Shown here: piece after piece, positions 1,927-47,863 of the stretch
How the letters are laid out: every line of letters starts with the position of its first letter
Numbering within the stretch: position 1 is the first letter of the stretch
From: Eubacteriaceae bacterium
Lineage (GTDB): Bacteria; Bacillota; Clostridia; Eubacteriales; Garciellaceae
DNA length: 54,655 nt
NCBI GenBank assembly: GCA_012838085.1
Contig: DUPX01000038.1
Location: 1-54,655 of the forward strand
Direction: 5' to 3'
Translations under genes and position numbers: made by a program
The notes under the pieces: generated by a model
What the model was told of the DNA's origin: nothing
The model's input: only the letters and a program-made list of their open reading frames with translations
Databases searched by the model: none

Positions 1927-4563
1927 TTATTTTGCTTTATTTTCTAGAATAACAGCTTGGGCAGCAGACAGTCTAGCAATGGGTACTCTATATGGGGAAC
2001 AAGATACATAATCTAAACCTGCATTATGGAAGAAAACTATTGATGCAGGATCTCCACCATGCTCTCCACATACCCCAATTTTTAACTCAGGTTTTTCTTT
2101 CCTTCCTAAATCAACTGCCAATTCTACTAATTTCCCAACTCCTGTTTGATCAATGCTTTCAAATGGATCTTTTTCTAAGATGTTTTTCTCATGATATTCA
2201 TTTAAGAATTTACCAGCATCATCTCTAGAAAATCCAAAGGCCATTTGTGTTAAGTCGTTAGTACCAAAGGAGAAAAATTCTGCTTCCTTAGCTATTTGAT
2301 CCGCAACTAATGTAGCTCTGGGAACTTCTATCATGGTTCCCACTAGATAATCTAATTCTATTCCTGCTTTTTCTATTAATTCATCGGCTGTTTTTACTAT
2401 ATAATCTTTAAGGTATTCTAATTCTTCTACAATACCTACTAAAGGTATCATTATCTCTGGTTTAATTTCTATATTATCCTCTTTAGAAACTTCTATAGCT
2501 GCTTCAATTATAGCTTTTGTTTGCATTACCGCAATTTCAGGATAGGTAATAGCTATTCTACAACCTCTATGACCCAGCATTGGGTTAAATTCTTTGAGAG
2601 ATTCAATTATTTCTTTTAGTTCGTCAAAGCTTATGTCAAAGTCTTTAGCTAAAGATAAAATATCCTTATCCTGGACTGGAAGAAATTCATGTAGTGGTGG
2701 ATCTAATAGTCTTATTGTAACAGGTCTACCACCCATGGCCCTAAATATACCTTTAAAATCTTCTTTTTGCATTGGTAATATTTCATTTAAATATTTTTCC
2801 CTTTGCTCCTTTGTATTGGAAAGAATCATTTTTCGAACAGAGCTAATTCTTTTTTCGTCAAAGAACATATGCTCAGTCCTACATAGTCCAATACCCTCTG
2901 CTCCAAACTTAACAGCAGTTTCAGCATCAGCTGGTGTATCAGCATTAGTCCTTATTCTTAGTTTTCTAAATTCATCAGACCATTCCATTAGTTCTCCAAA
3001 ATGTCCTGAAAGAGTGGGCTCTACAGTTTTAATTTCTCCTGAGTAAACTAATCCAGTACCGCCATCTAATGAAATAAAATCTCCTTCTTTATATACCTTG
3101 CCGTCAACAATAAATTCCTTTTTTTCTTCATTTACCCTAATGGATTCACATCCTGCTACACAGCATTTACCCATTCCTCTTGCTACTACGGCCGCATGGG
3201 AAGTCATTCCACCCCTTGCTGTTAGTATTCCACTAGCAAGATACATACCCTCGATATCTTCTGGTGATGTCTCTTGCCTTACTAAAATAGCCTTTTCCCC
3301 GCTATTGACTGCTGTAACAGCAGCTTCTGCAGTAAAGTAGATCTTACCTGTAGCTGCCCCTGGAGAAGCAGGTAAACCCTTTGCTATAGCTGATGCATTT
3401 TTAAGGGCTTCCTCGTCAAAATTAGGATGTAAAAGTTGATCAAGTTGCTTAGGTTCTATACGCATCAATGCTTCTTCTTTAGATATAATTCCCTCCTCCA
3501 CAAGTTCTGAAGCTACTCTTATTGCAGCTGTAGCAGTTCTTTTACCACTTCGTGTCTGCAAAATATATAGTTTGGATTTTTCTATTGTAAATTCTATATC
3601 CTGCATATCTTTGTAATGTTTTTCAAGTTTTTCAGCTGCGTCTTTAAATTGTTTATAAAGTTCTGGAGAAACTTCTTTTAAGTGAGAAATAGATTGGGGA
3701 GTTCTAATTCCTGCAACAACATCTTCCCCTTGGGCATTCATTAAAAATTCACCATATAGTTTATTCTCTCCAGTTGATGGGTTTCTTGTAAAGGCAACAC
3801 CAGTACCACAATCATCTCCCATATTTCCAAATACCATTGTTTGGACATTTACTGCAGTTCCCTTAATACTCTTTGGAACTTCATTAATTCTTCTATAAGT
3901 AATGGCCCTAGGATTATTCCAGGAAGCAAAAACAGCCTCAACAGATTTTAGCAATTGTTCCTTTGGGTCATAGGGAAAATCTTCTCCTGTTTCTTTTCTA
4001 ACTACTTCTTTAAACTGTTCTACTAATTCTTTTAAATGTTCAGCAGTTAATTGGGTATCTTCTGTGAAATTATTTTCTTCTTTCATTAACTCCAATAAAT
4101 TTTCAAATTTATCCTTATCTATTTCCAGTACCACATCACCAAACATCTGGATAAATCTTCTATAACTATCATAAGCAAACCTTTCATTTTGAGTATTTTC
4201 TGCTAAGGTCTTAACAGTATCATCATTTAACCCCAAATTTAATATTGTATCCATCATACCAGGCATTGAAATAGCTGCTCCTGATCTAACAGACACCAAT
4301 AGTGGATTTTCCACTGAACCGAATTCCTTACCGGTTTCCTTTTCCAATTTATTTAAAGAAGAATATATTTCTTCTATAAGGCCTTCAGATAATTTTTCTC
4401 CAGTTTGATAAAACTGATTACAGGCTTCTGTGGTAATAATAAAACCTTGAGGAACAGGTAAACCCATATTAGTCATCTCTCCAAGGTTAGCACCTTTACC
4501 TCCTAAAAGATCCCTCATAGTTGCATTTCCTTCTTTAAACATGTAGACATTTTTTGCTGTCAA
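1927..4563 (-). CDS. ppdK: Pyruvate, phosphate dikinase
   Basis: PPDK interconverts ATP + Pi + pyruvate and AMP + PPi + PEP, serving PPi-linked glycolysis or gluconeogenesis in anaerobes. The 878 residues match the usual length. Domain order is: ATP-grasp from residue 1 (GGKGANLGEM; VRSGAAISMPGMMDT; EFTIEKSKLYILQTR); swivelling phosphohistidine domain with GGMTSHAAVVARGMGK, whose catalytic His is residue 456; and the PEP/pyruvate TIM barrel with GVCGEHGGDP, whose catalytic Cys is residue 832. The start is TTG at 4563, seven bases after GGAGG. It lies 57 bp downstream of ccpN. The PPDK regulatory kinase/phosphatase (PpsR, DUF299), often encoded beside it, is absent here. A divergent paralogue lies at 37.6-41.7 kb. 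Confidence 0.97.
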   Translation of the reverse strand: MTAKNVYMFKEGNATMRDLLGGKGANLGEMTNMGLPVPQGFIITTEACNQFYQTGEKLSEGLIEEIYSSLNKLEKETGKEFGSVENPLLVSVRSGAAISMPGMMDTILNLGLNDDTVKTLAENTQNERFAYDSYRRFIQMFGDVVLEIDKDKFENLLELMKEENNFTEDTQLTAEHLKELVEQFKEVVRKETGEDFPYDPKEQLLKSVEAVFASWNNPRAITYRRINEVPKSIKGTAVNVQTMVFGNMGDDCGTGVAFTRNPSTGENKLYGEFLMNAQGEDVVAGIRTPQSISHLKEVSPELYKQFKDAAEKLEKHYKDMQDIEFTIEKSKLYILQTRSGKRTATAAIRVASELVEEGIISKEEALMRIEPKQLDQLLHPNFDEEALKNASAIAKGLPASPGAATGKIYFTAEAAVTAVNSGEKAILVRQETSPEDIEGMYLASGILTARGGMTSHAAVVARGMGKCCVAGCESIRVNEEKKEFIVDGKVYKEGDFISLDGGTGLVYSGEIKTVEPTLSGHFGELMEWSDEFRKLRIRTNADTPADAETAVKFGAEGIGLCRTEHMFFDEKRISSVRKMILSNTKEQREKYLNEILPMQKEDFKGIFRAMGGRPVTIRLLDPPLHEFLPVQDKDILSLAKDFDISFDELKEIIESLKEFNPMLGHRGCRIAITYPEIAVMQTKAIIEAAIEVSKEDNIEIKPEIMIPLVGIVEELEYLKDYIVKTADELIEKAGIELDYLVGTMIEVPRATLVADQIAKEAEFFSFGTNDLTQMAFGFSRDDAGKFLNEYHEKNILEKDPFESIDQTGVGKLVELAVDLGRKEKPELKIGVCGEHGGDPASIVFFHNAGLDYVSCSPYRVPIARLSAAQAVILENKAK

Positions 4564-33535: not shown

Positions 33536-35878
33536 TTAATTAATGTAATGTCTAACCCTTATCCAATCACCATTGGTAATCACTTCAACAGCTCCATCTT
33601 TATCTGTTCTGTATATTCTAATAGAAATATCCTCCAATAATTTTACTACATCTGGATTAGGATGATTAAAGTTATTGCTTTCACCAACAGAAATAATAGA
33701 AATTCTGGGTCTTACCCCAGCTAGAAATACTTCACTAGAAGAAGTATCACTGCCATGATGAGGAACTTTTAAAACATCCGCTTTGATATTTTTCTCCATA
33801 TCAATTAAAGTATTTTCTGTCTCCTCTTGGATATCGCCGGTAAAAAGAAATGAACTATTATTGTAATCTAGTCTGATAACAATAGAAAGATTGTTGATAT
33901 CTTTTTGTTCATCTACTATTATAGCATTACTTTTGGGAGAAAGAACTTCCATACTAATATTCTTATCCACCTTTATTATATTACCTTCTGTCAGCTTTAT
34001 TACTTTAATACCCCTTCTCCTTATCTCTTCAATAAAATCATTCATATATTTGTAATCTATATCAAAGACTCCAATTGCCTCTATAGGTATTTCCCCAATA
34101 AGTTCTTCTATTCCCTTCATATGGTCATCATGGGGATGAGAAATAATAACAAGGTCTAAACTGTTTATCCTTTTTGAATAAAGTGCAGGTAATAGTACAT
34201 CCTTAGAGATCTTTCTCTTCCCCTGATACTCTGGATAACCACCACCATCAATTAATATAGTGATTTTATTCGGTGTTTCTATAATTGCACTATCCCCTTG
34301 ATTTACATCTAGATAGGTTATTTTTAGAGGCCTAGGAATTAATAATATTGTAAAATGTATTATTACTAAAATACTTAATACAATAAAAGATATCCTTTTT
34401 ACCTTTTTTATACCAATAGGTATGTAATTGGCTATAATAAATAAAACAAATATATATATTATTAATCCTATTATAGTGAATGGTGGTAAAGATAAGGTGG
34501 AGTAAGAAAGAGAGGAAAAAAACTCTGCTATCTTTAAAACCCATTGAAAAATAAAACCTGCTAAAAAAAACAAATATTTCCCAATAAAGGGTGTCAAAAG
34601 GTAAAAACAAATTCCTCCAATAGATGTAATCAGCAATATGCCTAAGGAGGGAATAATAAGTAGGTTTGTAATTGGAGAAATAATAGAAAGCTGATGAAAA
34701 TGAAATATTGAAATGGGTAAAGTACCAAGTTGAGCAGCCAGGGTTACTGCTAAAAGCTGGCCAATAACAGGAGGCATAAATCTAATCTTTAAAAGATATT
34801 CTAGTATTGGTGAGTAAAATAAAATAATAGAAAAGGCTGCTAAAAATGACAATTGGAAGCTAGCTGTAAAAATCAATAAAGGATTGGGAATCAAAATAAT
34901 CAGCCCTGCTAGAGATAAAGCAGATATTCCATCATACTTCTTACTTATTACCCTAGAAAATAAATAAATCCATGTCATTATACTTGCACGAATAACTGAA
35001 GCCACTCCACCGGTGACTACTATATAAAAAGCCAACACCATTGTTATTATAATTAGTTTAAAGGGATTAGAAATCCTTAAAATTTTAGTTATAAAGTATA
35101 CAAAGCTAACTAAAAACCCTACATGAAGACCAGACACTGCTAGAATATGTGCAATTCCCGAGTCTACAAAATTATCCCTAATACTATTATCTAAATCCTT
35201 TTCCCCAAAAATTATTCCCTTTAGCAAGTCTCCATGGTCTTTAGATAGGTTTTCTTCTATAACCTTTATAATATTAGCCTTTATATTAAATGCATTATCC
35301 CTAACCATTCCTAATGATTTTTTCCCTAATACTTCGACAGACTCTTCTCCTATGGATAGGGTAGAATATACATTTTTAGTCTTTAAATATGTAGAATAGT
35401 CAAATCCTCCAGGATTTCGTTTCTCTTTAGGAAGTTTAATTCTTCCTTGAAACCTAATAATGTTCCCTTCAGAAATACTAATATTAGACTTACTTTCATC
35501 ATAAAAATATATATTTCCTAGCACTTTTTCTTCTATTAAGTAGTCTTTGCCATCTTTCACTATTTTATCTGTCCTAATATAGACTTCTATCTTATCTTCT
35601 TTAATCAGTGGTGGTTGAATTACTTGCCCCTGTATTAATACTTTTTGATTTTCTAAAAAACTCAGGTTTGATTCCCTGTTAATATGAATAATACCAGTAA
35701 AATATCCAGTTAATAAGCTAAAGAAAAATAATAAGAATATCAACTTTTTATTTCTATAAAGTAAAATAAGCCCTAATAAAATAATACTTAGGATTATTAT
35801 CAAGATATAGTTATGAATTTTTGCTAAGATAATACCTAGAATATATATAGCTAATATATTGAAAAGAGGCCGTCTCAT
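33536..35878 (-). CDS. comEC: ComEC/Rec2-family DNA uptake channel
   Basis: A polytopic membrane protein that moves transforming ssDNA across the membrane. Layout: N-terminal TM helices, an OB-like DUF4131 domain (VLIQGQVIQPPLIKEDKIEV...), the multi-TM ComEC core (LLKGIIFGEKD; ILAVSGLHVGFL; AASVIRASIMTWIYLF-like segment), and a C-terminal metallo-beta-lactamase domain with ISHPHDDHMKGIEEL, LFTGDIQEETE and KVPHHGSDTSS. 780 residues is full length. The ATG at 35878 uses the GAAGAAGG at the end of the preceding gene. comEA is encoded separately at 48 kb. Whether this organism is naturally competent is unknown. Confidence 0.95.
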   Translation of the reverse strand: MRRPLFNILAIYILGIILAKIHNYILIIILSIILLGLILLYRNKKLIFLLFFFSLLTGYFTGIIHINRESNLSFLENQKVLIQGQVIQPPLIKEDKIEVYIRTDKIVKDGKDYLIEEKVLGNIYFYDESKSNISISEGNIIRFQGRIKLPKEKRNPGGFDYSTYLKTKNVYSTLSIGEESVEVLGKKSLGMVRDNAFNIKANIIKVIEENLSKDHGDLLKGIIFGEKDLDNSIRDNFVDSGIAHILAVSGLHVGFLVSFVYFITKILRISNPFKLIIITMVLAFYIVVTGGVASVIRASIMTWIYLFSRVISKKYDGISALSLAGLIILIPNPLLIFTASFQLSFLAAFSIILFYSPILEYLLKIRFMPPVIGQLLAVTLAAQLGTLPISIFHFHQLSIISPITNLLIIPSLGILLITSIGGICFYLLTPFIGKYLFFLAGFIFQWVLKIAEFFSSLSYSTLSLPPFTIIGLIIYIFVLFIIANYIPIGIKKVKRISFIVLSILVIIHFTILLIPRPLKITYLDVNQGDSAIIETPNKITILIDGGGYPEYQGKRKISKDVLLPALYSKRINSLDLVIISHPHDDHMKGIEELIGEIPIEAIGVFDIDYKYMNDFIEEIRRRGIKVIKLTEGNIIKVDKNISMEVLSPKSNAIIVDEQKDINNLSIVIRLDYNNSSFLFTGDIQEETENTLIDMEKNIKADVLKVPHHGSDTSSSEVFLAGVRPRISIISVGESNNFNHPNPDVVKLLEDISIRIYRTDKDGAVEVITNGDWIRVRHYIN

Positions 35879-35885
35879 ATCATAT

Positions 35886-37064
35886 TTAACCTTCTTCCCT
35901 CTTTCTTAACAAGCCATACATTAAAGCAGTTATTGGAATAGATGCCAGAAGACCTATACTTCCTGTAAGGGCCCGGACTACCTCAGTAGCTATTAAATCT
36001 AGATTTAATACATTGACAATAGATGTTTCATAAGCAATAAATAATAATAATAGTGGTATTGCACTACCTGTATAAGCTAAAATCAAGGTATTTGACATGG
36101 TCCCCATGATATCTCTACCTACAACCAATCCAGATCTTACTAAGTCCTTAGTAGCAATAGAAGTATTATTGCTCCTTATCTCATCCATAGCTGAAGAAAT
36201 TGACATAGCAACATCCATTACTGCACCAAGGGCACCAATAATAATTCCGGCAAATAATAAACCTTTAAAATCAAATTCTATACCCTGTGGTATAAACATT
36301 AACATCTGAGCCTCCTGGGCACTTAACCCTGTCAATTTCGCAATATTTCCGAAACCATAGGATATTATCCCAGCAATCAATACACCACATAGGGTACCAA
36401 TTATTGCAGATATAGACTTTAGAGTGAATCCTGAAACAATAAATATGGTTACAATGGTGGAGAATATACAGACTATTATTGCTAAAATAATAGGACTATA
36501 TCCCTTTAACATTAATGGCAATAAAAAATATACTATCGACAAAGCAGTTACTCCAAGACCTATCAAAGATTTTACCCCTTGCCATTTACCAATTATTATA
36601 AGTAGTATAATAAATAATATTGTTAAATTTCTTAAATGGGGCCAGCGGACAAAGTCAGAGATATATACATTAACAATACTATCTTTCCCCTCTGTTAATT
36701 CAGCAAATATCATCACCTTATCCCCTTCTTTTACCCAAATATCATAGGCTGCACTTCCCATATTAATATGGTCTATAGTGTATTTTTCCCCCTTGAATTT
36801 ACCATCTAGTATTTCCAGCTCCACTACTTGATAAATATCAGGGAAACCTTGGCCAGCCAAGTCTTCATCCAGAAGGGGTTCTTCCCTAACTTTTATAATC
36901 TGAGCCCGGTAGAATTCTGTAGGGTATTCTATTTCCTCCCCATATCCGTCAAAATTATCATCTAAAGATTGTATCTCTTCAACTGTATTATCTTCTATAG
37001 CTAATACCTGTATGGGTAATAAAAGCAATGCAATAATGAAAAAGGATATAATAATTTTTTTCAA
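35886..37064 (-). CDS. YibE/F family membrane protein
   Basis: A signal peptide (residues 1-22, ending VLA) is followed by an extracytoplasmic domain (~25-140, with VVELEILDGKFKGEKYTIDH). About eight TM helices (~145-385) form the YibE/F domain: FIPQGIEFDFKGLLFAGIII, GAVMDVAMSISSAMDEI, SGLVVGRDIMGTMSNTLILA. These family signatures are clear, but the transported or signalled molecule is unknown. TTG at 37064 follows AGGAGGA. It is 7 bp upstream of comEC, so the two are likely co-transcribed, but no functional link is established. Confidence 0.88.
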   Translation of the reverse strand: MKKIIISFFIIALLLLPIQVLAIEDNTVEEIQSLDDNFDGYGEEIEYPTEFYRAQIIKVREEPLLDEDLAGQGFPDIYQVVELEILDGKFKGEKYTIDHINMGSAAYDIWVKEGDKVMIFAELTEGKDSIVNVYISDFVRWPHLRNLTILFIILLIIIGKWQGVKSLIGLGVTALSIVYFLLPLMLKGYSPIILAIIVCIFSTIVTIFIVSGFTLKSISAIIGTLCGVLIAGIISYGFGNIAKLTGLSAQEAQMLMFIPQGIEFDFKGLLFAGIIIGALGAVMDVAMSISSAMDEIRSNNTSIATKDLVRSGLVVGRDIMGTMSNTLILAYTGSAIPLLLLFIAYETSIVNVLNLDLIATEVVRALTGSIGLLASIPITALMYGLLRKREEG

Positions 37065-37584: not shown

Positions 37585-37620
37585 ATTAATATAATTTTTT
37601 ATGATTTGGAGGTACGAAAA

Positions 37621-40600
37621 ATGGAAAAAGGTTTTTCTTCAAAAGCCTTAGAGGTAAATTTAGCCCAAACCCGGGACATTGAAATGAATATACCTGAAGA
37701 TCAACAATGGTTTGCAGAATTATCAAAGTCCTATTGGGGCATATATAAAAGGACAAAAGAATTTATATTAGAGCTAAATCATCAATATATTAATTATAAA
37801 TATGTAATAGAAAATCTTCACAATATAAGTCTTACTGACCTATGGTTTTATAATTCTGTCCCTGAATCAGAAAAGGCTCTTAACATATTAGTGGATATAT
37901 TTGAAAAGCTTTTACAACAAAATCTAAGTGAAGGTGAGAGGGAGCTTTTAATTACCACCCTAATAAAGTTTATGGATCGCCTTGCAAAACTAGATAATTA
38001 CCCAAGTTCCATTATCCATAGATGTCTTGAAATAGTAAAAAAAGATATAAAGAAAAATGAATTATTGTATATAAGAAACTCTGGATATTTTAAGTCCTAT
38101 TTAAATAAAATAGCAGCCAGCAAAGAATATAATAAAATAGTAGTTAAAATGACCAAAGAATTACTAGAAAAATGTATTGATTATTGGGAAAACACCTCTA
38201 AAGCTGAGGAATGGTTTAAGGGGAAAAGTGTATTATTTCAGCCCCAAAATGCAGAAAAGATAATAAACATGGAAAAACCTTTCTTTAAAGAACTTAGAAG
38301 TCGTTTAGAAAATACTGATACTTGGCAAGGGCTACAGGAATTATTTTTCTTCAATGATATTTCAAACCATTTTCGTAGACTAACAGACCAATTTGATACC
38401 TCATTAGAAAAAATCTATTATATCAACTACCTTCTTCATCTTCCGGGCATGGTTCAATTAAAAGACCACCTCTTATATGATATGAATAGACTATTAAGAA
38501 GTGTATTAAAAGAATTAGATAATGAAGAAATAATACTATTTCTGTCCAATATCCTATCCCTGTTTAAAGAGCTTAAAGAAGAACATGCAAATACTGTGCT
38601 AGATTGTATTTTGACCCTTGGAAAAGAAGTAATCAATATAAAAGATGATAAGATAATATCTCATTTTATAAAAGAACTGACAGGGCTAGGTTTTATTTAT
38701 CCAGGTCAGCTAAATATTAATAGTGATTGGCAAATACAAGTAAATACAAATCATGTAAAAAACATAAGAGTATGGCTAGAGCTTATTGGTTACTCTCCAT
38801 TGGCTATGAGGGAACTCCTTTCTGCATTGATAGTTAATCTAAAATTAGGAGGAATCTTTATATCTGATACTGACCTTTTCCAAAGGGATGTAACAAAGCT
38901 CCTAAATGCTGAAATACAACCCGTATATAGACAAATGAAACAATTAGCAAGGATATTCCCAGTATACTTTAGGGATATAGGAGCAGAGGGTAAATTAAGG
39001 GAGGTAACCACTGCTGTAGATGAATTATCCAAAAGAAAGGACAGATTAATTCATTTTCTTAGAAAACAAACCCATACCGAGAGTAATAATACCCATATAG
39101 AGTTAACCAAGAGAATAATTCAGTATTGGCATGATGGAGATTTTAGACCACTAAAGAATATTGTTCCCCAGGATGTATATAATCAACTAGACACTAAAAG
39201 TCCTTGGTTTATCAATGTCCACACAGTATTAAAAGCACTATGTAATAAAAAGAATTGTGATCCTGAAGAACTGTTAAAATCAAATCTAGAAGAATTAGAA
39301 TTAGAAATAAATAACTTAAGTATAGGGACAGCTAATGATAAAAAAAGGGTATTATACCTTCTCCAATTATATAGCCTATTGCTAGAAAAATACTCCTTAG
39401 AAACAGAAAATATAATAACAATGCTAAGAGATTATAGATTCTTTAAAGATAAAGATCTAGAACAATTGGAATCCTTTTTTAATAAAAATGATTATAAAAA
39501 TGCACTAATCAAATTATATACCTTTATGAGGCATCTAAAACATATAATCCTAGATCCAAAAAAAAGTACCGCTCTAGAAAATATTTATTATAAGCGCCAT
39601 GTAGCAATCGGAATCCCATCAATGTATGGCCAATACATTGAGCCAAAATTCGAAGCCCTAGGGTTAATGTACAGATTGGAGAAGGTAGCCCAAGGACTAA
39701 TGGTTCGGCTAATACAAACATTAAATCTTGAATATATTACTGCAAAGACCTTTAGACATATATTGAAAGTGTTAGAATTATTTAAGCAAGGTTTAGAGCT
39801 GGATGGAATTAATAATCAAGGATTTAATTCCAATCTAGAGATGTTTAAATACAGCCTAACCTCCCCTAGCTTTACATTGGACCAATATATAAATATATTT
39901 CAATTTATGGCACAGGATATTAAACAAATAATTAATGAATATTTTTTAGATGTATATAAAAGTCCTTTAAAAATAATAATCCCCCAATTGAATAAAAAAA
40001 TTCCACCAGATATAGATGAAAAACATCTCTATCATATGGAATCAGAAAAATTCTTTAGGGATAATCTTACATCTGCCTTCTTAGTTCAAGACTTGGATAA
40101 TTTTATTACTAGTATATTAAGTACCCTAAGAAATATGGTAGATAATTACACTAGCGAGTTTATTAGCCAAATGATGACCTATGACCCGGATTTGACAATA
40201 AGCTCTTTAAGTCAAGAAACAATAGAGATGGATAACCCAGTTTTTCTCGGAGCAAAGGCATATTTTCTAAAAAAACTAATTTCCTATAACTTCCCCATAC
40301 CTCCAGGCTTTGTCTTAACTACCGAAGTTTTCAGGCATAAAGATAATGTACAGGAACATCCCTATATAGTACAAGAATTAGAACAACTTATCTTAAACCA
40401 TATTTGGGAAGTAGAACAACAAACAAATCAACAGTTTGGGAATCCGAGAAATCCCTTGTTATTCTCTGTTCGTTCTGGGTCGGCTTTTTCCATGCCTGGT
40501 GCAATGAGAACCTTCCTCAATGTAGGTATGAATGATGAAATAGCAGAAGCATTAAGTAAAAAACCTGGCCATGCCTGGACAGCTTGGGATTGTTATAGGC

Positions 40601-41706
40601 GATTTATTCAAAGCTGGGGTATGGCATATGGCATAGAAAGAGATATATTTGATAATATAATAATGGAATATAAAAAGAGACATAAGGTAGAATTAAAGGC
40701 AAACTTCACTCCAGATCAAATGAAAGATATGATAAATGCCTATAAGAAAGTACTAGAAGATAATAATATTTTAATAGAATACAATCCATTAAAACAGCTA
40801 AAACAAGCAATATTTAAAGTTATAGATTCTTGGTCTTCTGATAGGGCAATATTCTATAGGAAGCATTTACAAATATCCGATGAATGGGGAACAGCCGTAA
40901 TTGTTCAAAAAATGGCACTAGGTAATCTTTCCTATAATTCTGGAACAGGTGTAGTCTTTACTAGCAGCCCTCTAAATAACAAACCAGGTATAAATCTATA
41001 CGGAGATTTTACCCTGTATAGTCAGGGTGAGGATATAGTTTCTGGACTCGTTCATACACTACCAATAAGTGAAAACCAAAGAAAGTATCAGTATACCTAT
41101 AGTAATATCTCCTTGGAATCAGCATTTCCGAAGATTTATGATGCATTATTAGAGCTATCTATTCAGCTAATAGAAGATTATGGTTTTACTCACCAAGAAA
41201 TAGAATTCACTTTTGAATCAGAGCATCCCAAAGACCTATATATACTACAAACTAGAAAACAAAAATTAAAAAAACAAAAATCCCTATCCACCTTTGTCTT
41301 AAGTCCGGAACAAATGAAATTTTTAGGATCAGGGATAGGTGTTGGTGGAGGAGCACTATCTGGAATATTGGTTTTTGATATGGAGGATTTAGACTACTAT
41401 AGCCAAAAATATCCACAGAAAAAACTAATATTAATAAGACCAGATACAGTACCGGATGATATTCCCATGATATTTAAATGCCACGGTCTTATAACAGCAA
41501 AAGGTGGGATAACCTCCCATGCAGCTGTGACTGCAGGTAGCATGGGAAAAGTATGTATAGTTAATTGTAAAGAATTAATAGTAAATGAAGTAGAAAAATT
41601 TTGTACCATAAATGAAAAGGTTTTTAAATCAGGAGACAGACTATCTATAGATGGCAATCTAGGAAATATCTTTGAAGGAGAATATGATATATTAAATGAA
41701 TTATAA
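37621..41706 (+). CDS. PPDK-like dikinase with large unknown N-terminus and no PEP barrel
   Basis: 1361 residues (ATG 37621, seven bases after GGAGGT). Residues ~1-865 are a mostly helical region I cannot assign. Residues ~870-1230 match the PPDK ATP-grasp: Lys879 in LGAKA, Arg951 in SVRSGSAFSMPGAM, QGEDIVSGL, Glu1193/Glu1195 in EIEFTFE, Arg1212 in LQTR; these ATP contacts are retained. The swivelling domain has GGITSHAAVTAGSMGK with His1300. The protein stops ~60 residues later, where PPDK continues into its PEP/pyruvate barrel. By analogy with glucan-water dikinase and rifampin phosphotransferase it should move phosphate from ATP via His to some acceptor, perhaps bound by the N-terminus. 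The acceptor is unknown. It is followed by the GAPDH-like gene. Confidence 0.8.
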   Translation: MEKGFSSKALEVNLAQTRDIEMNIPEDQQWFAELSKSYWGIYKRTKEFILELNHQYINYKYVIENLHNISLTDLWFYNSVPESEKALNILVDIFEKLLQQNLSEGERELLITTLIKFMDRLAKLDNYPSSIIHRCLEIVKKDIKKNELLYIRNSGYFKSYLNKIAASKEYNKIVVKMTKELLEKCIDYWENTSKAEEWFKGKSVLFQPQNAEKIINMEKPFFKELRSRLENTDTWQGLQELFFFNDISNHFRRLTDQFDTSLEKIYYINYLLHLPGMVQLKDHLLYDMNRLLRSVLKELDNEEIILFLSNILSLFKELKEEHANTVLDCILTLGKEVINIKDDKIISHFIKELTGLGFIYPGQLNINSDWQIQVNTNHVKNIRVWLELIGYSPLAMRELLSALIVNLKLGGIFISDTDLFQRDVTKLLNAEIQPVYRQMKQLARIFPVYFRDIGAEGKLREVTTAVDELSKRKDRLIHFLRKQTHTESNNTHIELTKRIIQYWHDGDFRPLKNIVPQDVYNQLDTKSPWFINVHTVLKALCNKKNCDPEELLKSNLEELELEINNLSIGTANDKKRVLYLLQLYSLLLEKYSLETENIITMLRDYRFFKDKDLEQLESFFNKNDYKNALIKLYTFMRHLKHIILDPKKSTALENIYYKRHVAIGIPSMYGQYIEPKFEALGLMYRLEKVAQGLMVRLIQTLNLEYITAKTFRHILKVLELFKQGLELDGINNQGFNSNLEMFKYSLTSPSFTLDQYINIFQFMAQDIKQIINEYFLDVYKSPLKIIIPQLNKKIPPDIDEKHLYHMESEKFFRDNLTSAFLVQDLDNFITSILSTLRNMVDNYTSEFISQMMTYDPDLTISSLSQETIEMDNPVFLGAKAYFLKKLISYNFPIPPGFVLTTEVFRHKDNVQEHPYIVQELEQLILNHIWEVEQQTNQQFGNPRNPLLFSVRSGSAFSMPGAMRTFLNVGMNDEIAEALSKKPGHAWTAWDCYRRFIQSWGMAYGIERDIFDNIIMEYKKRHKVELKANFTPDQMKDMINAYKKVLEDNNILIEYNPLKQLKQAIFKVIDSWSSDRAIFYRKHLQISDEWGTAVIVQKMALGNLSYNSGTGVVFTSSPLNNKPGINLYGDFTLYSQGEDIVSGLVHTLPISENQRKYQYTYSNISLESAFPKIYDALLELSIQLIEDYGFTHQEIEFTFESEHPKDLYILQTRKQKLKKQKSLSTFVLSPEQMKFLGSGIGVGGGALSGILVFDMEDLDYYSQKYPQKKLILIRPDTVPDDIPMIFKCHGLITAKGGITSHAAVTAGSMGKVCIVNCKELIVNEVEKFCTINEKVFKSGDRLSIDGNLGNIFEGEYDILNEL

Positions 41707-41844: not shown

Positions 41845-43098
41845 ATGGAATTACCTTTAAAAAGCAAGAAAATCTTAGGAATTAATGGAATAGGCCGTAT
41901 CGGAAAACTTACCCTATGGAATCACCTTAACCTCCGACACTTTGATAGTATAGTAATAAATGCAGGACGACAAATAGGTAAGAGGCCAGAAGATATTATC
42001 CACTATCTTACAAAAGACTCTACATATGGTTCTATTAATAGATTTTTGTTTGGTTATACAGGTAAGTCCTGTGAGATAACAATTGAGGATGAAGAAGATT
42101 GTATATTTAAAATAAACGGAATTACAGTAAAGGTTTTAAGAAAGAAAAGAAATCCTAGAGATATAGATTGGGCAAAGGAAGGGGTAAGGCTGGTAGTGGA
42201 TTGTACTGGTGTGTTTTTAGATCCTACCCTACCAGCAGATCACCCTAAGGGAAGTATTCGAGGTCACTTAGAGGGAGGAGCAGAAAAAGTAATAGCCAGT
42301 GCCCCCTTTAAGATAAAGGACTCATCACAGAAAATGCCAGAGGATAGTGGGCTATTTGTATATGGAGTAAATCACTTCAATTATGATCCCTCTAGTCACC
42401 ATATACTTTCAGCGGCAAGCTGTACCACAACAGGTCTAGCCCATATGATAAAACCCCTACTGGATACAGAGGAAACTTCTAGAATAATCACTGCTTCCAT
42501 GTCTACAGTACACGCAGCCACTAATAACCAAAATATCTTAGATGCCGCACCAAAGTCAGGAGTGACAGACCTCAGAAGGAATAGATCAGTATTTAATAAT
42601 ATAATCCCCACATCTACAGGGGCAGCTATAGCCTTAGAAGAAGTCCTTCCAGAGATAAAAAAGGTAGGATTTATGGCAGATTCAGTAAGGGTACCAACTA
42701 GTACAGTATCCTTAATATCACTAAATATTACCTTCCGCACTGAATTAAATGAAACAGGAGATCCGATAATAGATAGGGAATTTATAAATAATATATATAA
42801 AAATGCATCCCAAGGAGCACAAAAAGATCTACTAGTCTTTAGTGAGGAACAAAATGTCTCCTCAGACCTAATGGGCTACCAAGCTGCAATAATAATAGAA
42901 GGGGTAGAAAACCACACTAGAACAGGATTCTTAAACATAGCAGCAGACACTCTAAGAGAATCTGGAATAGACACTCAACAAGATGTAAATATACCAGTGA
43001 CCCATGCAAAAATATTCGGTTGGTACGATAATGAATTTGGTAACTATGTAAACTGCCTAGGAAAATTATCAGTATATGTTGAAAAAAATATGGTATAA
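41845..43098 (+). CDS. Divergent glyceraldehyde-3-phosphate dehydrogenase-like protein
   Basis: 417 residues against ~335 for ordinary GAPDH. Recognisable: Rossmann motif INGIGRIGKLTLW; catalytic Cys193 in SAASCTTTGLAHM; His223 in MSTVHAATNNQNILD; NNIIPTSTGAAIALEEVLPEI; C-terminal IFGWYDNEFGNYVN. Differences: the Asp that normally ends beta-2 and holds NAD ribose (IND/VND) reads INAGRQIGKR here, hinting at NADP or another cofactor. Extra segments lie around residues 125-185 and near 365-385. The ATG at 41845 follows AGGAGTG. It lies 138 bp after the dikinase-like gene on the same strand, so the two probably act together. A phosphorylating aldehyde dehydrogenase is likely; glycolytic GAPDH is less likely. 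Confidence 0.85.
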   Translation: MELPLKSKKILGINGIGRIGKLTLWNHLNLRHFDSIVINAGRQIGKRPEDIIHYLTKDSTYGSINRFLFGYTGKSCEITIEDEEDCIFKINGITVKVLRKKRNPRDIDWAKEGVRLVVDCTGVFLDPTLPADHPKGSIRGHLEGGAEKVIASAPFKIKDSSQKMPEDSGLFVYGVNHFNYDPSSHHILSAASCTTTGLAHMIKPLLDTEETSRIITASMSTVHAATNNQNILDAAPKSGVTDLRRNRSVFNNIIPTSTGAAIALEEVLPEIKKVGFMADSVRVPTSTVSLISLNITFRTELNETGDPIIDREFINNIYKNASQGAQKDLLVFSEEQNVSSDLMGYQAAIIIEGVENHTRTGFLNIAADTLRESGIDTQQDVNIPVTHAKIFGWYDNEFGNYVNCLGKLSVYVEKNMV

Positions 43099-43182
43099 GG
43101 TGGGATGACAATAAGTTTATAGTTTTGTTTTAATAAAGACTATATTTTTGAATGCTGTAAAACAAATATAGCTAATATTGAA

Positions 43183-43208
43183 AAATAGCCGATAATCTCG
43201 GCTATTTT
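43183..43208 (-). terminator. Terminator hairpin after tRNA-Sec
   Basis: AAATAGCCGA paired with TCGGCTATTT, followed by TTTTC on the minus strand. It lies between the convergent GAPDH-like gene and tRNA-Sec and may act on both strands. Confidence 0.75.
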
Positions 43209-43443: not shown

Positions 43444-45336
43444 CTAATAAAGTGTTCTTTTATCTCCCTTTCTTTTGGTTATTTTTTCTTGGTCAAATTT
43501 TTCTAACAGAGCTATGGCAAATTTTCTACTAGTTTTTAGTAGGTCTCTATATTTTGCTGCATTTATTTCTTTATGTGCCTTTAAGTATTCTTTTAGTATT
43601 ATTATTGAATTTTCATAAGTGGCTTTATGAAAGTATATTTCTTCGCCAATCTTTATTAAGCTACCCCAGTCTACTAGGGCCTGAAAAACCTGTTCTTCTT
43701 CTTTATTATTTAAAATTGTTTCTGGTCTTGGTGGGTTGCAATTTTCCTTTATAAATTCTTCTTCTATCCTATCTGCTATAGATTTTTGTTGTTCTGTTAG
43801 TCTTACTTCAAAATCCCTAAGAGCAATAGTCTCTCTTTCTATTTTTAAGTAGTCCCTATCTTTCATGTATTTAAATAGTTCTTCTACTATTTTTACTCTG
43901 GTCTTTCCTAGAAATTTACTTCTAACCTCTTCCTTTGGTGCTCCAGGTTTTAATGGATGTTTTTTATGATAATCTTCTAAATAATTTGAAATCCTCTTTA
44001 TTAATTCCCCTACTACTCCCTTATGGATTAAGAATATTTCCTCATTAATCTTGAACATTATTATAGACTTTTCTTCTAGAAGGCTTTTATATGCCTTTTC
44101 CATTTCCTTTGGGGAAATTCCTATATTTTTATATATATTCTCTAAGGGCATAAGATCTAAAGCCTGGAAGTTTAAAAATTGTAATAGGATATCCCTTGGA
44201 TCACCCTTTTCCTTTAGCTTTAATTCCTTTATTATATCCTCCTTATATCTTTTTTTTTTCGGAGGATTGATATCTAGAATTAATGCCCCACCTATTGTTA
44301 TCATTGGTGAGTAGAAGCGAATTATAACATGGTCCATTGGTTTTGCTGTAGTAGATTTTTCTAAGATAAATTGAGCATAGCCCTCTTCACCAGCTAACAA
44401 TTCTTCTTTATCCAGTAAGGATACCCTTGCTAAGATCTCGCTGGTACCTATATATAGGTGTACTCTATCATTATGTTTTATTGGAAAAGGTGAATCTTTT
44501 AGAAGGGTGATTTTACCATCTAGCATTATAGTGTCCTGTAGGGAATCTATCTGTGCTAACACATCTCCTCTAGATATTTGGTGTTTTTTTATATTACTTA
44601 AATTTACTGCCACCCTTTGGCCCGCACTTGCCCTGTCTACCTTTGAGTCATGAACTTGTAAGCTTCTTATCTTAACCATTTTTGCACCAGGATATAACAT
44701 GGCATTGTCGTTTATATTAATTGTCCCTTCTACTAAAGTCCCTGTAACTATAGTCCCAATTCCTGTAATTGTAAACACTCTATCTATAGGTAGCCGAAAG
44801 GATTTGGTATTGTCCCGATTTTTTACCTTGGCCGTAAGATTGTCTATTTGTTCTATCAACTTATCTATTCCAGTCTTTTTAGTTGAAGATACTGGTATTA
44901 TTGGAGCATCTTTTAAGAAGGTATCTGCTGTAGCTTCTCTTACTTCCTCTGTAACCATCTCTATCCATTCCTCATCTACAATGTCAGATTTAGTCAGGGC
45001 TATTATTCCTGTTTTTACCTGAAGTAGATTTAAGATGTTTAAATGTTCCTGGGTTTGAGGCATAACCCCTTCATCTGCTGCTATAGCAAGTATTACGATA
45101 TCTATTCCCCCTACCCCTGCCAGCATATTCTTAATAAATTTTTCATGGCCAGGTACATCTATTATTCCTGCCCTTCTTCCACTAGGCAAATCAAAGTAAG
45201 TAAAGCCTAATTCTATAGAAATACCTCTTTTCTTTTCTTCTGCTAACCTGTCTGTATCCCGGCCAGTGAGTGCTTTTATTAATGTGGTTTTACCATGGTC
45301 TATATGGCCAGCTGTACCGATGATAATATTCTCCAT
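43444..45336 (-). CDS. selB: Selenocysteine-specific elongation factor SelB
   Basis: SelB brings Sec-tRNA to UGA codons that carry a SECIS. G motifs: [44 protein letters not shown]. The EF-Tu-like domains (to ~350) lead into four winged-helix SECIS-binding domains (~380-630). 630 residues is normal. The ATG at 45336 overlaps the selA stop by one base (TAATG), so translation is coupled. It is followed by tRNA-Sec. Confidence 0.97.
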
Positions 45337-46760
45337 TAGTATCCCCCATTATTTTTAAGTATGTTTTTTAGAGATTTATCTATATCTTCTATGTCCTTGT
45401 CTGTGAGGGTACGCATATCGAAACATACCCTATCTTTAAATATTCTAGCGAAAATAGGTTTATCTGCGTATCTTAGTTCTTTCTCTAATTGGCTGGTGGA
45501 AATATTTTCACTATAACAACTTACTACATAGGTAGGTAGCTTTTCTAAAGGTAGTGCTCCTCCCCCTACCTGGGATTGGGATTCTTCTATTTTGATTTGA
45601 GCAAAGTTTTCAAGAGATGAGGTTAGTCTATCCTTTAATTCCTGTGCCCTTTTATAAAGTGTTTCTTTTTGAACTGTTAACATTCTAAGGGTGGGAATTC
45701 TATTTATAATATCCTCTTCCTCTTCATAGATTTTTAAAGTAGCTTCTAAAGCTGCCAGGGTGAGCTTATCTATTCTCAGAGCACGATTTAATGGATGTCT
45801 TTTAATAAGGTCTATATACTTTTTTTTACCAATTATTATTCCTGCCTGGGGTCCCCCTAATAGCTTATCACCACTAAAAGTCACTATATCCATACCTGCT
45901 GCAACTACTCCTTGAACAGTAGGCTCTGGTGAAAGGCCATACTGAGTCAGATCTATTAATACTCCACTACCTACATCTTCTATAGAGGGAAGATTGTGTT
46001 TTCTCGCTAATTCTACTATTTCTTGAGTAGATACACTTTTTGTAAAACCTAATATTTTGTAATTACTTGTATGAACCTTTAGCAATGCCCCTGTATTATC
46101 ATTGATAGCATTTTCATAGTCTTTTAGGTGGGTTTTATTTGTAGAACCTACCTCTACTAATTTGGCACCACTTTGTTCCATTACTTCTGGTATTCTAAAG
46201 GAACCTCCTATTTCTACTAATTCTCCTCTGGATACTATTACTTCCTTATCTTTTGCCAAGGTTGTTAGTACTAAGGTTACTGCTGCCGCATTATTATTTA
46301 CCACCAGGCTACTTTCTGCCTTTGTTAGTTTACATAATAATTTTTCTACATGAGTATATCTAGAACCCCTTTCTCCAGTATCTACATCTATTTCCAATGT
46401 AGAATATTCACTTGCTACTGACCAGAGGGCCTCTTTTACTTCCTCACTTAATAAAGAGCGGCCTAAGTTGGTATGAAGAACTACCCCAGTGGCATTTATT
46501 ACTGGTCTTAAACTCATAGTTGTATTCTTTTCTATTGTTTTTTCTATTTGTCTTATTAATTGGGCTAGACTTAAATCATATGTAAGTATTTCTTCTTCAC
46601 TTAAATTCATTATTTCTTGACGTATGTTTTCTAAGGTCTCACGAATTGAACTCACAATATTTTTATGGGATGTTATATTGTTTAATTTTTGTATTTGGAG
46701 TAATGTTAATATTTGATCAACTGATGGTATTGTTTTTAGAATTTCATTTTTTGTTTTCAA
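45336..46760 (-). CDS. selA: L-seryl-tRNA(Sec) selenium transferase
   Basis: A PLP enzyme turning Ser-tRNA-Sec into Sec-tRNA-Sec with selenophosphate. 474 residues: N-terminal tRNA-binding domain (~1-75), then the PLP fold with [47 protein letters not shown], and the Lys of [19 protein letters not shown] at 46760 follows GGAGG by eight bases. Between selD and selB. Confidence 0.97.
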
Positions 46761-46822
46761 TGGTTTATCCTCCTATTATTACTGTAGTTTAATACAATTT
46801 AAAACGAGGAATAATAGCCCTT

Positions 46823-47863
46823 TTATTTTATTACTAGCTCCTTTTTACCTCTTTGTAATACTCTACCTATTTGGGCATAAGGTGTTTTTAGTGTATTTTC
46901 TAATCTTGTTAATAATTCATGAGCCTTTTCTTCTTTTATAGTTATTAGTAACCCTCCAGAGGTTTGTGGATCACATAAGATTTTCTTTATAACATCTGGT
47001 GTGTTTTCAGCCCATAATGTCTTATTTTTTACATATTCTATATTTGCATATGCTCCTCCAGGTACAAAGCCCATTTCACCTAATTCTATTGCTTCTTCTA
47101 TTATAGGTACTTGATTATATTCTATTTCTATTGATACATTGCTGGCTTTTGCCATTTCATAAGCATGGCCTAATAGTCCAAATCCTGTTATATCTGTGCA
47201 TCCATTAATACCTATTTCCTGCATTGCATCTTTGGCATCTTTATTTAGGTATGCCATTATATATATTGCCTTATCTATTACATCTCCTGAGACAAAATCT
47301 GCTTTTATTGCTGTATTTATAATGCCTAGCCCTATAGGTTTAGTCAATATTAATATATCTCCTGGTTGGGCATGAGAATTAGCTCTAAATTCTAAAGGAT
47401 GAACCATACCGGTTACTGATAAACCATATTTTGGTTCATTATCATCTACACTATGACCTCCTACCAGAAGGGCTCCGGCTTCTGCTATCTTGTCTGCTCC
47501 CCCTTTTAAAATCTCTCCTAATATCTCCTCTGGTAGACATTCTGGAATACACACTATATTCATAGCTGTTAATGGGGTACCTCCCATTGCATATATATCA
47601 CTTAATGAATTTGCTGCAGCAATTTGTCCAAAGTAATACGGACTATCTATTACAGGAGTAAAAAAATCCAATGTTTGTACTATTGCTCTTTCTTCATCTA
47701 TTTTATATATGGCTGCATCGTCAGAGCTGTCTATTCCTACTAATAAATTTTCATTTTTATTTACTTTTAAGTCCTTTAGTGCTTTTTCTAAGGCCCCCGG
47801 CCCTATTTTTGCTGCTCAGCCAGAGCTTCTGACCATTTGGGTTAATCTATATTTTTTTGTCAT
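46823..47863 (-). CDS. selD: Selenide, water dikinase; selenoprotein with UGA=Sec at codon 16
   Basis: SelD makes selenophosphate from selenide and ATP. A plain ORF scan gives only the part from 47671. Reading on, the ATG at 47863 (GAAAGGAAGAG upstream) opens MTKKYRLTQMVRSSG, then UGA (47818-47816), then AAKIGPGALEKAL. The UGA falls at the family's redox position SG(C/U)xxK, next to the catalytic Lys19. ATP-site motifs GIDSSDDAAIYKI, TLDFFTPVID, GGHSVDDNEPKYGLSVTG and TDITGFGLLGHAYEM follow. 346 residues is full length. First gene of selD-selA-selB-tRNA-Sec, so the enzyme depends on the pathway it feeds. Confidence 0.96.
47790..47818 (-). promoter_or_regulatory. Bacterial SECIS-like hairpin downstream of selD UGA
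   Basis: After UGA and 11 bases, the mRNA reads AGGGCC-GGG-GGCCUU: a six-pair stem with a GG-containing apical loop whose start is 17 nt after the UGA. Spacing and loop agree with bacterial SECIS elements bound by SelB. Confidence 0.8.

Follow-up and report, generated by a model that had tools for sequence, protein, structure and literature searches.

What does a pyruvate, phosphate dikinase (PPDK)-type enzyme phosphorylate when the phosphoenolpyruvate (PEP)/pyruvate barrel is missing and 865 other residues precede its ATP-binding half? The question is raised by a gene at positions 37621–41706 (+) of a 54,655-nucleotide stretch of DNA (contig DUPX01000038.1 of assembly GCA_012838085.1, from an Eubacteriaceae bacterium of the Clostridia), hereafter called the window; its frame is open from ATG to stop with no interruption, and its 1361-residue product (hereafter the dikinase) is conserved over its full length in relatives. 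In PPDK, PEP synthase, the glucan-phosphorylating dikinases and rifampin phosphotransferase, the same ATP/His engine has been joined to acceptor modules that differ, and the N-terminus of the dikinase would be a further module of this kind, without recognisable relative and kept across several phyla. Note that full-text literature searches, with most subscription papers outside their coverage, returned neither such a dikinase nor the pair that its gene forms with a gene for glyceraldehyde-3-phosphate dehydrogenase (GAPDH). This adjacency suggests that a new phosphate-transfer step exists alongside glycolysis, and the gene tie means that a specific new reaction of central metabolism can be tested in organisms already cultured and sequenced, among them Fusibacter paucivorans, Alkalibacter mobilis, Sinanaerobacter and Acetobacterium.

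Architecture of the C-terminal half

Pfam assigned two domains to the 1361-residue protein, PPDK_N (PF01326; residues 919–1221, E 5.6e-30) and the PEP-utilizers mobile/His domain (PF00391; residues 1267–1348, E 1.1e-16), with nothing more above the cut-off and no PEP barrel, and Clostridium symbiosum PPDK aligned to it in two blocks (875–1216 and 1233–1356; E 3.6e-72). A PPDK-type ATP-grasp domain was delimited at residues 871–1221 (40231–41283, +) from PF01326, PDB PPDK and the residue map, and a swivelling phosphohistidine domain at residues 1233–1356 (41317–41688, +) from PF00391 and PDB entries 1kbl and 2fm4; the linker between them is short, most of the PPDK linker being absent. Residues known to be catalytic in PPDK correspond here to K879, R951, R993/R994, E1193 (an Asp in PPDK), E1195, Q1210, R1212, T1298 and H1300, and these positions are retained across the dikinase relatives. 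By alignment with PPDK, His1300 (codon 41518–41520, +), within the motif GGITSHAA, is the predicted phosphorylated histidine, and it is invariant in 70 sequences. A sequence-only reading of the window had proposed just such an intact PPDK-type half without a barrel, a description that Pfam, the PPDK alignment and the residue map bear out. It had also named, as evidence that would count against it, a barrel encoded separately next door in relatives; no PEP barrel occurs in the 823 open reading frames (ORFs) around dikinase relatives.

The ATP half scores 373 bits against PPDK, 65 against PEP synthase and 27 against rifampin phosphotransferase, and it contains the PPDK-only stretch with R993/R994. 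Because of these PPDK-leaning scores and of this stretch, we infer that inorganic phosphate (Pi), rather than water, would take the gamma phosphate. In a model of residues 172–1361, the ATP-grasp/His pair is arranged as in 1kbl, 2dik and 1dik (superposition at 2.8–3.4 Å) and not as in 2r82 (14.7 Å); the His domain lies on the acceptor side in the first three structures and on the ATP side in 2r82. Altogether, the architecture, the catalytic residues and the PPDK type of the ATP half are established at the level of sequence, where the ATP/His engine is complete; the protein should work as a phosphohistidine dikinase and is very probably active as one.

The N-terminal module

Residues 1–865 (37621–40215, +) belong to no family in Pfam, NCBIfam, PADLOC or PDB sequences, and a PDB search with a 61-sequence profile of the N-terminus gave no match. 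AlphaFold predicted a confident all-alpha structure (pLDDT 87, pTM 0.79) with a single beta hairpin at residues 652–673, for which Foldseek retrieved just generic helical-repeat proteins from the PDB (TM-score ≤0.3) and no significant viral match. The earlier reading had left these residues unassigned and had singled out a characterised family with a known acceptor as the finding that would speak against it; none emerged from the HMM, PDB sequence and fold searches. One candidate distant homolog of the N-terminus (G144, E 8.8e-4) was an RNase G/E-like ORF and was judged a chance match.

Conservation along the module is uneven. Two patches rich in Arg, Lys, His, Asp and Glu stand out, namely residues 401–500 (38821–39120, +; GGIFISDTDLFQRD ... 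IGAEGKLR ... HTESNNTHI), with 34 invariant positions in 70 sequences, and residues 651–700 (39571–39720, +; ENIYYKRHVAIGIPSMYGQYIEPKFEALGL), with 20 invariant positions, which contain the hairpin of the model. In invariant density, both match the ATP-grasp core (20 invariant positions in residues 951–1000 of the same 70 sequences). Invariance on a par with that of the ATP site argues for a predicted binding or catalytic site in the patches, and this pattern of conservation fits a module with a function better than it fits a dead remnant or a passive spacer. The conserved loops have moderate pLDDT, with no gain when the C-terminal domains are included in the model. The N-terminus is probably the acceptor module.

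Family and distribution

A scan of GTDB genomes gave at least 582 confirmed matches to the dikinase, 80 of which underlie the locus analyses reported here. Among the matches listed, hosts are found in the Bacillota (Acetobacterium, Alkalibacter, Fusibacter, Sinanaerobacter and Syntrophomonadaceae), the Thermodesulfobacteriota (Geobacteraceae and Desulfobacteraceae) and further phyla (Bacteroidota, Cloacimonadota, Calditrichota, Ignavibacteriota, Chloroflexota and others). The whole ~1360-residue architecture recurs across phyla at 46–72% identity, and relatives in the order-level sample carry the complete protein at 54–68% identity. Homologs not cut by a contig end are nearly all ~1360 residues long and colinear, and full-length homologs in related genomes contain no internal stops. 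Because the full 1361-residue protein is conserved across several phyla, a chance architecture is excluded.

The spread remains patchy. The dikinase is present in 5 of 299 genomes of the phylum (a sixth match being an RNase G/E-like chance match), and of 295 genomes from the class to which one Bacteroidales host belongs, only that host has it; none was found in viral contigs. In a tree of the ATP-grasp/His half, the dikinases form one group apart from the PPDKs (bootstrap 92 and 98), the rooting being indicative only, as the outgroup, E. coli PpsA, sits on a very long branch. The dikinase is a widespread bacterial enzyme family whose nearest relative, by HMM score and tree, is PPDK.

The GAPDH partner

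The partner gene lies directly downstream at 41845–43098 (+) and encodes a dedicated GAPDH paralog of 417 residues, recognised by Gp_dh_N/Gp_dh_C, by its conserved position and by co-occurrence. A pattern scan found no terminator-like site between the two genes of the window and a terminator-like hairpin after the pair (43182–43208, +). A locus was counted as informative if its dikinase gene was near-complete and sufficient flanking sequence was present both upstream and downstream; of 60 such loci, 51 have a GAPDH gene, or a fragment of one, within 400 bases of the dikinase. Two kinds were distinguished: a 400–460-residue paralog that immediately follows the dikinase gene on the same strand, as in the window (36 loci), and a GAPDH of ~335 residues and near-canonical sequence, mostly divergent upstream (18 loci), while four loci (L079, L083, L104 and L117) carry one of each kind, on either side. 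Since the other host genomes tested hold just 2–4 GAPDH-family genes each, chance adjacency should, by our own estimate, be well under 1% per locus.

Co-occurrence gives the same picture. The dedicated paralog is found in exactly the 5 of 299 phylum genomes that bear the dikinase and, leaving aside the window's own genome, in 4 of 4 dikinase genomes versus 0 of 294 others; in the order-level sample, four genomes (G000, G001, G014 and G022) have both genes and none has the paralog alone. The dikinase and GAPDH are thus linked by gene adjacency and co-occurrence, and a functional link is highly probable. The paralog retains the catalytic Cys and His and the phosphate-site Thr and Arg, its NAD-binding Asp is replaced within an N-x-G-R motif, and its possible shift to NADP is a prediction from these residues. 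With 311 bits against TIGR01534 (type I; equivalog cut-off 367), it falls below the cut-off as a divergent paralog. The sequence-only reading was right about the architecture, and it overlooked both the multi-phylum family and this conserved partner, which is the best functional clue.

Proposed reaction and alternatives

In PPDK, ATP pyrophosphorylates a histidine, the gamma phosphate passes to Pi, and a swing of the His domain then brings the beta phosphate to the acceptor. In the dikinase, ATP bound in the ATP-grasp domain would pyrophosphorylate His1300, Pi would accept the gamma phosphate to give pyrophosphate (PPi), and the swivelling His domain would take the beta phosphate across to an acceptor bound at the charged, conserved patches (401–500 and 651–700). 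The overall reaction would be ATP + Pi + X -> AMP + PPi + X-P, with coupling to GAPDH. SerA-like (3-phosphoglycerate dehydrogenase) genes of two forms, called by visual inspection and by mutual BLAST matches rather than by a family model, lie 2–3 genes downstream in five loci; because two GAPDH kinds, and SerA in places, keep company with the dikinase, the glyceraldehyde-3-phosphate/phosphoglycerate node appears indicated. The leading candidate acceptor would be the carboxylate of 3-phosphoglycerate (3PG), in the reaction 3PG + ATP + Pi <-> 1,3-bisphosphoglycerate (1,3-BPG) + AMP + PPi, which would be the simplest one joining the dikinase to GAPDH. Textbook hydrolysis free energies put it not far from equilibrium, and by this estimate either direction could be feasible. 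We infer the chemistry, the Pi dependence, the N-terminal acceptor site, the identity of the acceptor and the direction from sequence and gene context: the 3PG/1,3-BPG pair is proposed tentatively as the acceptor couple, and the best explanation as a whole (a Pi-dependent dikinase acting on the 3PG carboxylate and coupled to GAPDH) is put forward with similar reserve.

As to the host, the window's genome has a canonical GAPDH and a phosphoglycerate kinase (PGK) on another contig, with a membrane H+-pumping pyrophosphatase ~4 kb past PGK, all three genes falling in a stretch of ~8 kb (G000:C39:22262–30548). The window itself also encodes a canonical PPDK (1927–4563, −; 1436 bits against TIGR01828), and this PPDK and the H+-pyrophosphatase fit a PPi-based energy economy. 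Replacement of PGK was rejected, as PGK is missing in just 1 of 25 host genomes (G371, possibly incomplete); since PGK is not replaced, any route through the dikinase would run parallel to it. A phosphoglycerate, phosphate dikinase with its own, possibly NADP-type, GAPDH could conceivably provide bacteria that have a PPi economy with a parallel branch in lower glycolysis or gluconeogenesis, a suggestion that we make with somewhat less confidence than that of the acceptor. The PPi source of PPi-dependent anaerobes is presented as an open question for Clostridium thermocellum in one study (PMC8863071). If the dikinase does make or use PPi at the phosphoglycerate step, it would bear on this source.

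Several observations weigh against the 3PG proposal. An alpha-solenoid N-terminus could equally well be a protein-binding scaffold, and Acetobacterium, in the order-level sample, has the dikinase without the dedicated GAPDH paralog. The host has canonical GAPDH and PGK, and 24 of 25 other hosts have PGK, which leaves no missing step for the dikinase to supply. Moreover, we know of no dikinase that phosphorylates a carboxylate.

One alternative is a dikinase of the same build that serves another small triose-level acceptor, e.g., a hydroxyl of glycerate or glyceraldehyde, with GAPDH acting on the phosphorylated product. Other dikinases of the superfamily transfer to hydroxyls (rifampin, glucan and phenols; PMC12167813 for the phenol type), and the evidence for the dikinase and for the GAPDH link is shared by both explanations. 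However, no recurrent sugar or glycerate genes were found near the dikinase, and the need for a second, dedicated GAPDH over the canonical one is left unexplained, so that we regard a hydroxyl acceptor as unlikely, although it is the strongest of the alternatives.

The solenoid-like, all-alpha N-terminus in the model and the constancy of GAPDH as partner would also suit a regulatory or scaffold enzyme, whose helical N-terminus binds GAPDH and whose His domain phosphorylates or controls it. A precedent exists in VadK of Mycobacterium tuberculosis, which is related to PPDK but has no barrel, phosphorylates itself and interacts with metabolic enzymes, those of the methylcitrate cycle (PMC13400623). 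Nevertheless, two sharply invariant charged patches resemble a small-ligand site and not a broad protein interface, and the partner varies by lineage (the 417-residue paralog, the 335-residue near-canonical GAPDH, or none in Acetobacterium), which makes this role slightly less likely again than a hydroxyl acceptor. Finally, a diverged PPDK without catalytic or phosphotransfer role (a dead remnant or fusion artefact), to which the absent PEP barrel might point and which the sequence-only reading had already doubted, was rejected as highly improbable on full-length conservation across phyla, intact ATP-grasp/His residues and the lack of stops within full-length homologs of related genomes.

Gene context and neighbouring genes

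The likely start of the dikinase is ATG 37621 rather than the TTG at 37606, because a GGAGG ribosome-binding site (37608–37612, +), found by sequence inspection, sits 8 bases ahead of this ATG. On the opposite strand 5′ of the gene lie a YibE/F-like membrane protein (35886–37064, −) and a ComEC-type competence protein (33536–35878, −), neither of which recurs beside the dikinase in relatives. In the window, the selenocysteine genes selB-selA-selD (43444–47671, −) adjoin the dikinase-GAPDH pair, and on one contig from the Cloacimonadota (L077, 6611–17173) the pair stands between selA and selB, with selD close by; as only two lineages among the 80 loci have this arrangement, it may be a coincidence. 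A wider occurrence of SelB beside the dikinase in many Bacteroidales was considered and dropped, since L077 alone matches SelB over its length, the other SelB-resembling neighbours doing so over ~96 residues or not at all.

In Syntrophomonadaceae and relatives (L057, L060 and L068), inspection by eye gave a conserved order of NagB-like, dikinase, GAPDH paralog, DUF362-like, long SerA-like and glutaredoxin-like genes. In addition, Sinanaerobacter, Acetobacterium and Alkalibacter have, besides the canonical pair, an extra divergent GAPDH-family gene adjoining a divergent second PGK (G360:C17:5762–7538; G361:C26:165226–167023; G362:C9:22416–24181 and C71:91785–93571).

Comparison with known systems

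The dikinase is outside the PPDK, PEP synthase, rifampin phosphotransferase and glucan, water dikinase (GWD) families, since it lacks at least one tested defining feature of each. It remains below the equivalog cut-off for PPDK (373 bits versus 843, TIGR01828) and the cut-off for PEP synthase (65 bits versus 740, TIGR01418), and it has no PEP barrel. In GWD, the His domain precedes the ATP domain and carbohydrate-binding modules are present, whereas the order here is ATP-grasp then His, with no carbohydrate-binding module in Pfam. Rifampin phosphotransferase, the two-component phenol-type dikinases (HpeHI, PpsAB) and the prodigiosin ligases combine ATP-grasp and swivelling His domains with a different acceptor module (PMC12167813). 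The dikinase shares this engine, but matches the group weakly (27 bits against RIF_Ptrans_rph, cut-off 999), differs in domain arrangement, lacks a rifampin-binding domain between ATP-grasp and His, and has an unrelated putative acceptor module.

The truncated mycobacterial PPDK type represented by VadK (NF004531/PRK05878; PMC13400623) is likewise a PPDK-derived ATP-grasp and His pair without barrel, but the dikinase scores 275 bits there versus 373 for PPDK, and VadK has no N-terminal module of this kind and other partners. PPDK itself (TIGR01828; 1KBL) is the nearest relative, with ATP-grasp followed by a phosphohistidine domain and catalytic residues in common; the dikinase differs by the loss of the barrel, of the barrel Cys and of most of the linker, and by the added 865-residue module and the GAPDH neighbour. 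In function, the closest comparison would be PGK, an unrelated protein that interconverts the same pair, 3PG and 1,3-BPG, beside GAPDH. With ATP + Pi -> AMP + PPi as its proposed cosubstrate chemistry, the dikinase would be the AMP/PPi-linked counterpart of PGK, as PPDK is of pyruvate kinase.

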